Part shown: positions 1 through 37,230 of the stretch, one piece after another | How positions within the stretch are numbered: the first letter of the stretch is position 1 | Layout: every line of letters begins with the position of its first letter | NCBI GenBank assembly: GCA_029260715.1 | Contig: JAJDCS010000003.1 | Coordinates: forward strand, 1 to 64,000 | Direction: 5' to 3' | Origin: Phycisphaeraceae bacterium | GTDB lineage: Bacteria > Planctomycetota > Phycisphaerae > Phycisphaerales > Phycisphaeraceae | DNA: 64,000 nucleotides | Made by a program: the position numbers and the translations under genes | Notes under the pieces: generated by a model | Told to the model about the DNA's origin: nothing | Seen by the model: only the letters and a program-made list of their open reading frames with translations | The model's database searches: none

Positions 1-157
1 AAGCGGGCCGGGATAAGTACGTGTGTGGTGATCGCTCCCTCAGCATCACCGCCTTTGCGCACATAGACCTCTCTCTCATCAATGCGCACTGGTGCCGAAA
101 AACCCCGCGAGCAGCCTCGATTCAAAATAGCGAAGTAAAAAGCTCAGCCAGACAAGC

Positions 158-34020: not shown

Positions 34021-35631
34021 TCACCGTTTGCCCCCGCGGGTGGTGCGTCGCGTGGTTTTCGTGGCCTTCTTGTTGCCGCGTTTGGTAGGCGTGGCGACCT
34101 CCCGCGTCTCGAACGCTTTGATCCGGTTGATGGCTGACAGGTACGCGCGCACGGCTGCTTCCACCACGTCCGTCGAGTGGCCACGCCCGGTGACTTTCCG
34201 GTCGTTGTGACGTACCTGGACGCTGGCTTGGCCCTGGGCGTCTTTGCCGGCTGTCACGGCGCGGGTTTGGTAGTCCTCCAGCGTGATGCGCACGCCCGTG
34301 ATCCGCTGAATCGCTGAGTACACCGCGTCGATCGGCCCGTCGCCCGTGGCGGCGTCCATGCGCTGTGTGCCGGTCGAGTCTTGGAGCACAACAGTGGCGG
34401 TGGCGATCATGCCCGTGCCGCTGCTTACCTGGAAACGCACCAACTCCCAGAGCTGCCGCCCCGTGCGGAGCTGCTGGTCCATGATGACCTCAATGTCCTC
34501 GTCGTAGACCTCTTTCTTCTTGTCGGCCAGAGCCTTGAACGCCTCGAAGGTTGTGTCGAGCGCATTTTTGTCCAGGGTGTAGCCCAGGTGCGAGACGCGT
34601 TGGCCGAAGGCGTGGCGGCCCGAGTGTTTGCCCAGGACCAGCTTGTTCTCGGGCAGGCCGATGTCGAGCGGGTCCATGATCTCGTACGTCGTGCGCTCCT
34701 TGAGCACGCCGTCTTGGTGGATGCCCGCTTCGTGGGCGAACGCGTTCTCGCCGATGATGGCCTTGTTGCGCTGCACCTGTAGGCCGGTCATGGTCGAGAC
34801 CATGCGCGACACCGGGTAGATCTTCTTGGTGTTGATCTTGGTGGTGTATTTTGCGAAGTAGTCCTTGCGCGTGCGCAGGGTCATGACGATCTCTTCGAGC
34901 GCTGCGTTTCCGGCGCGCTCGCCGATGCCGTTGATGGTGCACTCGATCTGCCTGGCCCCGTTCTCGATCGCTGCCAGGCTGTTGCACACGGCCAGGCCCA
35001 GGTCGTTGTGGCAGTGGGCGGACAGGATGATTTTTTTCTTGTCCAACTCGGGCAGTTGTTCTCGCAGGTGGCTGAAGATTCGGCCATACTCGGCGGGCAC
35101 GGCGTAGCCCACGGTGTCGGGCAGATTGATGGTGGTGGCGCCGGCTTCGACGGCGGCGGCGGTGATGTCCACCAAGTAGTTCAACTCGGTGCGCGACGCG
35201 TCTTCAGGGCTGAACTCCACGTCGTCCACGTACCCCCTCGCCTGCTCGACGGACTGGGCGGACAGTTCAATAATCCGCTTGATGGGCATTCGCAGCTTGT
35301 GGGTGCGGTGGATCTTGCTGGTGGCGCAGAAGACGTGTATGCGTGCATTCTTCGCCTTTTTCAGGGCTTCGCCGGCGCGGTCGATGTCTTTCGGCACGCA
35401 CCGGGCCAGGCCCGCGACTGTGGCGCGGCCCAGCTCTTGGGAGATGGCACGCACAGACTCGAAATCACCCACGCTGGTAATGGGGAAGCCGGCTTCGATG
35501 ATGTCCACGCCCAGCGCTTCGAGGTTGCGGGCGATCTCGATCTTTTCCTGCATGTTCAGCGTGGCGCCGGGCGATTGCTCGCCGTCGCGCAGCGTGGTGT
35601 CAAAAATCCGGATGGGAATCGCACTGGCCAT
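34021..35631 (-). CDS. leuA: 2-isopropylmalate synthase
   Basis: First enzyme of leucine biosynthesis, joining acetyl-CoA and 2-ketoisovalerate; 536 residues. The TIM barrel shows [17 protein letters not shown] (metal-binding Asp), [13 protein letters not shown], and [18 protein letters not shown] (His ligands); [17 protein letters not shown] is the second signature. The C-terminal ~120 residues form the leucine-binding regulatory domain, ending in a Lys/Arg/Thr-rich tail. GGAG lies 7 nt before the ATG and directly after a terminator T tract, so expression is under the attenuator described below. No other leu genes are in the window. Confidence 0.96.
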
Positions 35632-35642
35632 GATGAATCTCC

Positions 35643-35684
35643 AAAAAAATAACCCCTGTCACGAGAATATACTCGGTGCAGGGG
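35643..35684 (-). terminator. Attenuator terminator in the leuA leader
   Basis: On the minus strand CCCCTGCACCGAG pairs with CTCGTGACAGGGG (12 bp with two single-base bulges) around a TATATT loop, followed by TTATTTTTTT that runs straight into the leuA ribosome site. A terminator ahead of, not behind, a gene marks attenuation. The 5' arm can instead pair with CTCGGGTAGGG inside the leader peptide (CTCGG with CCGAG, AGGG with CCCT), a competing antiterminator. Confidence 0.8.
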
Positions 35685-35712
35685 CTTGTTCGCGTGGTGA
35701 TCGTAAGCTTGT

Positions 35713-35808
35713 TTAGCTTGGCGCCCTACCCGAGTGACAACCTAGGAGCCCTTGCAACAGCAGGGCCCGGAGGCTCGTAAGTCGGGTTGTGCCAAACGTG
35801 GTCTTCAT
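35713..35808 (-). CDS. leuL: Leucine attenuator leader peptide
   Basis: A 31-codon open frame between the promoter and the attenuator. It begins [10 protein letters not shown] and carries seven Leu codons (positions 10, 13, 16-18, 21 and 22), five of them in the seven-codon run LLLQGLL, including CTA. The putative antiterminator segment spans codons 25-29, just downstream of the Leu cluster, so a ribosome stalled for Leu-tRNA would leave it free while one reaching the stop would cover it. The ATG is 7 nt past the -10 box, so translation is probably leaderless. Homology to a named LeuL cannot be shown; the assignment rests on architecture. Confidence 0.75.
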
Positions 35809-35815
35809 GCGGGCA

Positions 35816-35844
35816 ATCCTAGCGCCGCCCCGGGCAAGTGTCAA
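35816..35844 (-). promoter_or_regulatory. Consensus promoter of the leuL-leuA transcript
   Basis: On the minus strand: TTGACA (35844-35839), exact 17-nt spacer, TAGGAT (35821-35816). The expected start point falls at or beside the leader-peptide ATG at 35808. Confidence 0.8.
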
Positions 35845-35902: not shown

Positions 35903-35931
35903 TTGACGGTGGTGGGGCAGACCGCTATTTT
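35903..35931 (+). promoter_or_regulatory. Candidate promoter of icd
   Basis: TTGACG, 17-nt spacer, TATTTT, about 45 nt before the icd start. It diverges from the leuL promoter, with about 58 nt between the two -35 boxes. Confidence 0.55.
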
Positions 35932-35976: not shown

Positions 35977-37230
35977 ATGCCTCCAACCGCCCCGCCCACC
36001 GCAGGCCAACCCATCACCTTCAAAAACGGAAAGCTGGACGTGCCCGCCCACCCCGTCATCCCGTTCATCGAAGGCGACGGCATCGGCCCGGACATCTGGC
36101 GCGCCAGCCAGCGCGTGTTCGACGCGGCGGTCAGCAAGGCGTACAGCGACAAACGCGCCATCGCCTGGAAGGAAGTGCTGGCCGGTGAGAAGGCTTACAA
36201 GGAAACCGGCAACTGGCTGCCCGACGAGACCGTCGAGGCGTTCAAGACCCACTTCGTGGGCATCAAGGGCCCGCTGACCACACCCGTCGGCGGCGGCATC
36301 CGGTCGCTGAACGTGGCGCTGCGCCAAATCCTGGACCTCTACGTCTGCCTGCGGCCCGTGCGGTATTTCCGGGGCGTGCCCAGCCCGGTCAAGAAGCCGG
36401 AGCTGGTCGACATGGTCATCTTCCGCGAGAACACCGAGGACATCTACGCGGGCATCGAGTTCCAACACGGCACCGACGACGCCGAGTCCTTCAAGAAGCT
36501 CATCGCCGAGCACTTCCCCGAGCGGTTTAAGAAAGTGCGGTTCCCGAAGACGGCTGGGTTTGGGATTAAACCGGTGTCGCAAGAAGGCACGGGGCGGCTC
36601 GTGCGTGCGGCCATTGATTACGCCATCGCCCATAACCGCAAGAGCGTTACGCTGGTACACAAGGGCAACATTATGAAGTTCACGGAGGGCGCCTTTCGCG
36701 ATTGGGGCTATGAAGTGGCTAAGAAGTCCTACGGCGGTAAAGAGATCGACGGCGGGCCGTGGCAGGTGATTAAGACGGATGAGGGGCACGAGATTATTGT
36801 GAAGGACGTCATCGCGGACGCGTTTTTGCAGCAGATCCTGACGCGGCCGGCGGAGTATGACGTGATCGCCACGCTGAACCTGAACGGGGATTACGTTTCG
36901 GACGCTTTGGCTGCGTGCGTGGGCGGCATCGGCATCGCCCCCGGCGGCAACATCAACTACACCTCCGGCCACGCCATCTTCGAAGCCACCCACGGCACCG
37001 CCCCCAAGTACGCCGGGCAGGACAAAGTCAATCCCGGCTCCGTCATCCTCTCAGGCGAGCTAATGCTGCGCCACCTAGGCTGGAACGAAGCCGCCGACCT
37101 CATCATGAAAGGCATGGAAGGCGCCATCGCCGCCAAGACAGTCACCTACGACTTCGCCCGGCTCATGGGCGACGCCAAAGAGGTAAAGTGCAGCGAGTTC
37201 GGCGAAGCAATCGTGAAGCACATGGGGTGA
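35977..37230 (+). CDS. icd: NADP-dependent isocitrate dehydrogenase
   Basis: TCA-cycle enzyme converting isocitrate to 2-oxoglutarate and CO2 with NADP reduction; 417 residues, the E. coli Icd length. [14 protein letters not shown] opens the domain. [22 protein letters not shown] includes the substrate Ser and Arg residues, [14 protein letters not shown] and [17 protein letters not shown] carry Tyr/Lys catalytic residues, and [25 protein letters not shown] and [11 protein letters not shown] bind metal and cofactor. The frame is open upstream, but GGGAG 9 nt before 35977 fixes the start. Confidence 0.96.

Follow-up and report, generated by a model that had tools for sequence, protein, structure and literature searches.

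The gene leuA of a Phycisphaeraceae bacterium is preceded, on the minus strand, by a promoter and a short frame rich in leucine codons. The question raised by this locus is whether leuA is controlled by leucine through the translation of a leader peptide, and whether this translation starts at the very 5' end of the messenger. The window (the whole stretch of 64,000 nucleotides that was analysed, positions 1 to 64,000 of contig JAJDCS010000003.1) comes from an assembly of 3.32 Mb in 44 contigs. With a probability of roughly 0.9, we read the region as a ribosome-mediated transcription attenuator of leuA, the leader peptide of which would be translated from a leaderless 5' end. The LeuA protein is recognized by the NCBIfam profiles NF002086 (762 bits, cut-off 532) and TIGR00973 (724.2 bits, cut-off 598.7), and its nearest named relatives are from a Planctomycetota MAG and from Phycisphaeraceae MAGs (records of the own genome were possibly excluded from this comparison). 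The features of the locus are the following:

35839..35844, minus strand: -35 element TTGACA (sequence and promoter scan)
35816..35821, minus strand: -10 element TAGGAT (TAnnnT), with a 17-nt spacer from the -35 element (sequence and promoter scan)
35713..35808, minus strand: leader ORF, leuL-like, 31 codons including 7 Leu, predicted to be leaderless (sequence and translation)
35724..35735, minus strand: 5' arm of the antiterminator (segment 2), ACTCGGGTAGGG (folding and comparison of the arms with relatives)
35672..35684, minus strand: shared arm (segment 3), CCCCTGCACCGAG, partner of segment 2 in the antiterminator or of segment 4 in the terminator (folding)
35653..35665, minus strand: 3' arm of the terminator (segment 4), CTCGTGACAGGGG (folding)
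35643..35652, minus strand: U-tract of the intrinsic terminator, TTATTTTTTT (sequence)
34021..35631, minus strand: leuA, 2-isopropylmalate synthase, 536 aa, with ATG at 35631 and GGAG at 35642-35639 (NCBIfam profiles)

The leader frame starts with the ATG at 35808, 7 nt past the -10 element, and ends with the TAA at 35715-35713; the leucines occupy codons 10, 13, 16-18, 21 and 22. All the parts named in the preliminary description (TTGACA-17-TAGGAT, the ATG 7 nt on, the 31 codons and their leucine positions, the terminator, the GGAG and the ATG of leuA) were recovered on re-reading. Between 34000 and 37500, three sigma-70-like sites were detected on both strands, compared with 0.7 (sd 1.0) on average in shuffled sequences, and the promoter of the leuA leader is the single minus-strand site listed. 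The intergenic region of the attenuator is shared with a divergent gene for an NADP-dependent isocitrate dehydrogenase (35977-37230, plus strand, ATG at 35977), and contains a plus-strand site TTGACG-17-TATTTT at 35903-35931.

The intrinsic terminator ahead of the structural gene leuA has 11-12 pairs with bulges, and the energy of its region (-20.9 kcal/mol, z = -4.0) was equalled by none of 200 shuffles. A generic terminator scan of the window did not list it, probably because of these bulges. The terminator shares one arm with an antiterminator, so that the two helices are mutually exclusive. The alternative pairing of the 5' terminator arm with the 3' end of the leader, as had been proposed, is supported by folding: a 91-nt stretch in which the 3' terminator arm is represented by its first base only adopts this pairing as its minimum-energy fold, the stability of this stretch being ordinary (z = -0.9; 40 of 200 shuffles equally good).

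These parts suggest the following mechanism, in which the exact 5' end, the stalling, the termination and the response to leucine are predictions made from the sequence. Transcription would start no further than about 2 nt from the AUG at 35808, and the ribosome would begin directly on this codon. When Leu-tRNA is ample, the ribosome would reach the end of the frame and cover segment 2, segments 3 and 4 would pair, and transcription would halt at the U-tract. When Leu-tRNA is scarce, the ribosome would stall in the leucine run (codons 16-18, 21 and 22) and leave segment 2 free, so that it could pair with segment 3 while segment 4 is still to be transcribed, and the RNA polymerase would continue into leuA. 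A leucine-rich frame at the start of the messenger would thus probably let this planctomycete turn leuA on just when leucine is scarce.

The preliminary description had proposed to look for conserved leucine-rich frames upstream of leuA in relatives, and such frames are indeed widespread in the family. The sample comprised 51 genomes including that of the window; leuA was detected in 45 of them at an E value of 1e-100, and 44 upstream regions were examined (43 plus that of G048; in G033 the match starts at the contig edge). A leader was defined by a -35 element matching TTGACA at no fewer than 5 of 6 positions, a spacer of 16-18 nt, TAnnnT, 3-13 nt, an ATG and a frame of 12-60 codons with at least 4 Leu. 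It was found in 40 of the 44 regions (39 of 43, plus G048) and in none of 2150 dinucleotide-shuffled regions, while 38 of the 43 real regions still passed when trimmed to the same 450 nt. Two of the four misses, G014 and G016, are cut contigs with just 41 and 28 nt upstream; by eye, the other two have a leader with 3 Leu (G015) and a leader with a GTG start (G042). When the promoter requirement was dropped, 36 of 43 genomes displayed a leucine-rich ATG frame ahead of a terminator, and the promoter was present at one start in all 36 genomes (36 of 40 distinct frames).

Among the 39 leaders, which were selected with at least 4 Leu each, leucine accounts for 269 of 1019 codons. The peptides are 23-31 aa long, and their leucine content is maintained while their sequence is not. 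A hairpin with a U-tract lies 3' of the leader across the family, the U-tract being weak in G019 and G020, and the distance from the leader stop to the leuA match varies from 81 to 436 nt. A covariance model built from 36 relatives gave matches in 43 of 397 genomes of the class and was judged unfit for counts, several of its weaker matches preceding unrelated genes. This model does not recover the leader of the window, which we read as one that has drifted relative to the family.

The two helices were then compared among relatives. When the arms of the 39 leaders were swapped, the own arms paired better than the swapped ones in both the antiterminator (z -6.6) and the terminator (z -11.8), with none of 20000 permutations reaching the observed value in either case. 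When each genus was represented by a single genome (26), the values were -5.7 and -9.4, and 0.0 for the control pairing of segment 2 with segment 4. Both swap tests include the window, G022 and G036, the atypical arms of which were left out of the alignment used to count changes on both sides of a pair (36 of 39 rows, which biases the count in favour of the structure). In this alignment, changes on both sides were observed in 6 of 10 terminator pairs (reached by 2 of 500 shuffles) and in 5 of 11 antiterminator pairs (reached by 23 of 500); cells with such changes number 16 in each helix, which none of 500 shuffles reached. The arms of the leuA antiterminator and terminator thus covary. A protective pairing between segments 1 and 2 is weakly supported (z -2.9, 58 of 20000 permutations).

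The typical segment 2 of the family is GCCGGATAGGG, in which the stop codon is UAG, and its partner CCCTGTCCGGC is the 5' arm of the terminator. The stop codon of the leader lies within this pairing in 33 of 39 leaders, the exceptions being the window, G034, G022, G043, G036 and G020. In the window, the matching TAG (TCGGGTAGGG, within 35724-35735) is one frame off, which makes the leader 4 codons longer, whereas in the nearest relative, G029, the matching TAG is in frame. This frame difference reflects either drift or an assembly error; assuming a ribosome footprint, most of segment 2 would nevertheless be covered once the ribosome has reached the later stop. With the same kind of assumption, 214 of 267 leucine codons are located at least 13 nt ahead of the antiterminator arm, and the placement of the leucine codons of the window is such that a stalled ribosome would free segment 2 and a ribosome at the stop would cover it.

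Folding of the leader in both states, another check put forward in the preliminary description, gave the 2:3 pairing with a ribosome at Leu17 and none with a ribosome at the stop. In stepwise folding, the ribosome at Leu17 was accompanied by a 12-pair antiterminator until segment 4 was nearly complete, whereas 2:3 never formed with the ribosome at the stop. Without a ribosome, 2:3 was present at four of the five lengths before the completion of segment 4, and strong basal termination is therefore not predicted from folding alone. In the finished leader, the terminator has the lower energy, even if a ribosome sits at Leu17; antitermination must therefore be kinetic.

A LeuA paralogue in the genome of the window is the citramalate synthase cimA (TIGR00977, 601.6 bits, cut-off 450), which is the entry to isoleucine. 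Upstream of this gene (contig C6) are found TATAAT, 7 nt, an ATG opening the frame MAELRRTIFAIIIARQTIPTPLARR with its stop codon, and then a terminator. The -35 element is poor (2 of 6 matches), and a UAG lies in the stretch that pairs with the 5' terminator arm. A second attenuator, with an isoleucine-rich and apparently leaderless leader, precedes cimA. Leaders were also sought across the family by a scan blind to amino acids, which used the spacing of the -10 element and a terminator 30-110 nt past the stop. It recovered 35 of 41 leuA regions, with 27.1% Leu and 4.3% Ile, and 32 of 46 cimA regions, with 23.6% Ile and 4.9% Leu; shuffled regions gave 0 of 820 and 0 of 920, respectively. The same scan found no leader in the trpE and ilvB upstream regions of the family (0 of 30 each). 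When at least 4 of 6 matches to the -35 element were required in addition, 35 of 41 leuA regions (26.9% Leu) and 17 of 46 cimA regions (26.9% Ile) were retained. One of the 32 passing cimA regions (G031) is not Ile-rich and is probably a chance match, and among the 14 misses four have, by eye, isoleucine leaders that look Shine-Dalgarno-led and not leaderless. An antiterminator pairing is present in the cimA leaders, the own arms pairing no better than swapped ones (z -1.2, 2501 of 20000 permutations); only the terminator covaries (z -7.4). A leucine leader at leuA and an isoleucine leader at its paralogue amount to a natural codon-swap test within one genome. Together with the family conservation and the covariation, this swap argues for the classical ribosome-mediated leucine attenuation that had been suggested for the locus.

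How the leader is started remains to be considered. Every one of the 39 leaders has exactly one TTGACN-16..18-TAnnnT within the 300 nt before its stop; more than one candidate ATG, GTG or TTG start is available in 33 of the 39 frames. The distance from the -10 element to the ATG, which the leader search limited to 3-13 nt, is 6-12 nt, most commonly 9 (14 leaders) or 7 (9 leaders). Shine-Dalgarno-like 4-mers occur at only four of the 39 leader starts, the window being counted among them because its -10 element contains AGGA. Similar motifs are found at 24-26 of the 39 leuA starts when the start is picked regardless of them, and at 29 of 39 when the in-frame start with the most motifs is picked. 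This scarcity at leader starts and abundance at leuA starts supports leaderless initiation, and with the promoter spacing it places the predicted 5' end at or near the AUG at 35808. In the own genome, the pattern TTGACN{17,19}TANNNTN{6,9}ATG was found 18 times (L126-L143), against 2 for a reversed control pattern. Ten of these 18 sites open frames of at least 110 codons, and, judged from their sequence, these frames include lipoprotein-like genes as well as regulators resembling LysR and ArsR. From this enrichment, leaderless initiation is likely to be ordinary in the genome of the window. It is quite unlikely that the attenuator is real and not leaderless, that is, that transcription starts further upstream and that the AGGA at 35820-35817 acts as a Shine-Dalgarno sequence. 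This AGGA does lie 8 nt ahead of the leader ATG, four of the 39 family leaders have such a 4-mer, and the cimA leaders of G012, G035, G015 and G008 (by eye, with GGAG or AGGA and no TAnnnT 3-13 nt before the ATG), indicate that Shine-Dalgarno-bearing leaders exist within the same family. However, 35 of the 39 leuA leader starts have no such 4-mer, and the single promoter of each of the 39 leaders ends 6-12 nt before the ATG. The leaderless start predicted for this frame is therefore supported, within one planctomycete family, by the conservation of the promoter spacing and the lack of Shine-Dalgarno motifs.

The sensing of leucine through the leader could also be questioned. The terminator, stable by itself, might be a constitutive brake, the leucine-rich frame being a small protein or a chance frame. 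This seems very improbable, as leucine content is kept although the peptide sequence is not, isoleucine replaces leucine in the cimA leaders, and the antiterminator arm of leuA covaries with segment 3. The involvement of a T-box or of another riboswitch is the least credible proposal. Genes of the leu group are T-box targets in other phyla, yet none of the 4227 models of Rfam 15 matched the window at its gathering score, no Rfam match was listed for locus L001 at E values up to 5, and a T-box would not account for isoleucine codons replacing leucine codons before cimA. Searches with Rfam near five loci gave one tRNA, all else being below the gathering score. Control might finally be exerted on the translation of leuA, by hiding its Shine-Dalgarno sequence, instead of on the elongation of the transcript. 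In the actinobacterial LEU element, the leucine run has been proposed to pair with the Shine-Dalgarno sequence of leuA (PMC1262725, as excerpted), and the GGAG of leuA lies directly 3' of the U-tract in the window. We give this very little credence, since leaders throughout the family are followed by a hairpin and U-tract that lie at widely varying distances from leuA, and no arm of the window includes the GGAG.

The attenuator was also sought outside the family. In the sister family f3 of the order, a leader was present in 7 of 7 leuA regions (one with a TTG start), whereas it was found in 9 of 40 regions from other classes of the phylum (one of them, G468, doubtful) and in 0 of 3 from the rest of the class. 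Shuffled regions passed in none of 140 (f3), 800 (other classes) and 60 (rest of the class) cases, thus 0 of 1000 overall. A looser test was passed by 15 of 80 named leuA loci, each of which bears a planctomycete title; the promoter matches at 2 of 6 positions in one of them and at 3 of 6 in another. These numbers suggest an element that is old within the order and has a patchy distribution outside it. A leuA match at an E value of 1e-90 is absent from 45 of 71 genomes of the order, which are largely complete, and this absence includes every searched genome of the families f2, f4, f5 and f28. Leucine auxotrophy or a different enzyme would be possible explanations.

Upstream of ilvB, in 30 genomes of the family, valine-rich leaders are often observed with TAnnnT located 4-10 nt before the start. 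Many of them end in VVVS before the stop, and 18 of 30 were recovered by a search that required a terminal run of V or I. The end of these leaders is a strongly conserved sequence, GTYGTYGTTAGCTGAGCGGnnGACCCGC, which extends across the stop codon. The core of this sequence is present in 21 of 30 ilvB loci, and a 27-base form has a single occurrence in each of 7 of 298 genomes of the class, all 7 belonging to the family of the window; the own genome of the window gave no match to the motif. In six ilvB loci compared with Rfam, no family reached the gathering score, and one sub-threshold match was seen in three of them at E values up to 2. The stretch is possibly an undescribed regulatory RNA motif. 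We tentatively suggest, as a wider reading that is somewhat doubtful, that the entry points of branched-chain synthesis are controlled as a set in this family by leaderless sensor peptides: leucine at leuA, isoleucine at cimA, and a valine-rich peptide at ilvB, which ends at a strongly conserved, undescribed RNA motif that lacks a terminator. If so, the leaderless start would load the first ribosome at the 5' end in step with the RNA polymerase, and the stop codon inside the antiterminator pairing would make the arrival and release of the ribosome at the stop the switch itself. The pair formed by leuA and cimA would be a system in which to compare the step between ribosome and polymerase after leaderless and Shine-Dalgarno starts.

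Attenuators of the leu, trp, ilv and his operons of enterobacteria combine a leader peptide in which the regulatory amino acid is abundant with an intrinsic terminator and a choice between 2:3 and 3:4 helices; the leader frame there is preceded by a 5' UTR that carries a ribosome-binding site. The locus of the window resembles them in its amino-acid-rich leader, its alternative helices and its intrinsic terminator; a difference is that 33 of 39 planctomycete leaders have their stop codon within the antiterminator pairing. Polycysteine leaderless short ORFs of mycobacteria have reportedly been treated by Canestrari in 2020. In the excerpts of the sources on mycobacterial cysteine uORFs, the likeness is that of a leaderless short ORF sensing one amino acid for a downstream operon (PMC4633059), and the difference is that the mode is given as translation attenuation (PMC13236596).

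A close likeness in gene and start is found in Streptomyces lividans, for which the excerpted text of PMC8079986 describes LeuL1 (before leuA) and LeuL2 (before leuS). LeuL1 is, like the leader of the window, a leaderless leucine-rich frame before leuA, and LeuL2 has a hairpin and a U-stretch; LeuL1 is given there as having no typical Rho-independent terminator, unlike the window, and the two peptides (15 and 12 aa) are shorter than the 39 planctomycete ones (23-31 aa). The same text includes TrpL1 and IlvL among the leaderless leaders of S. lividans, and leuA, leuS, trpE and ilvB among the Streptomyces targets. For actinobacterial leuA leaders, the part of PMC1262725 consulted proposes a pseudoknot, which is a difference from the planctomycete leaders. 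In Sinorhizobium meliloti, the trpL transcript (rnTrpL/peTrpL) begins at the ATG of the leader ORF and undergoes ribosome-dependent transcription attenuation, the differences being tryptophan, trpE(G), a 14-aa peptide and the affiliation to Alphaproteobacteria (PMC7298713, in part). The ilvB leader of Corynebacterium is likewise a branched-chain leader, and the excerpt of PMC5784534 reports that ilvB of C. diphtheriae has a leaderless transcript, leaderless translation of C. glutamicum ilvBNC being discussed in that of PMC11857589; the gene and the phylum are others, and the peptide has 15 aa.

Among the matches listed by a full-text literature search with planctomycete terms, no amino-acid attenuator was reported in Planctomycetota in the titles and the beginnings of the abstracts, and a search on citramalate synthase and leader peptides gave a single match, concerning an archaeon. 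The excerpted text of PMC4833913 deals with leader genes in Planctomycetes generally, the words 'leuA' and 'leucine' being absent from it, and that of PMC5397173 names Planctomycetes among species with few Shine-Dalgarno genes, which tend to have a bias ascribed to leaderless mRNA or to ribosomal protein S1. The preliminary description regarded a leaderless leader peptide as unusual; it seems new for Planctomycetota in the literature searched, but Sinorhizobium, Streptomyces, Corynebacterium and mycobacteria already provide documented examples. Judged by sequence comparison, the leuA attenuator is real and conserved and, as leaderless leader peptides tied to actual or proposed attenuation have been published in other bacteria, it belongs to a kind already known there; amino-acid-sensing attenuation with leaderless translation would now be placed in Planctomycetota as well.
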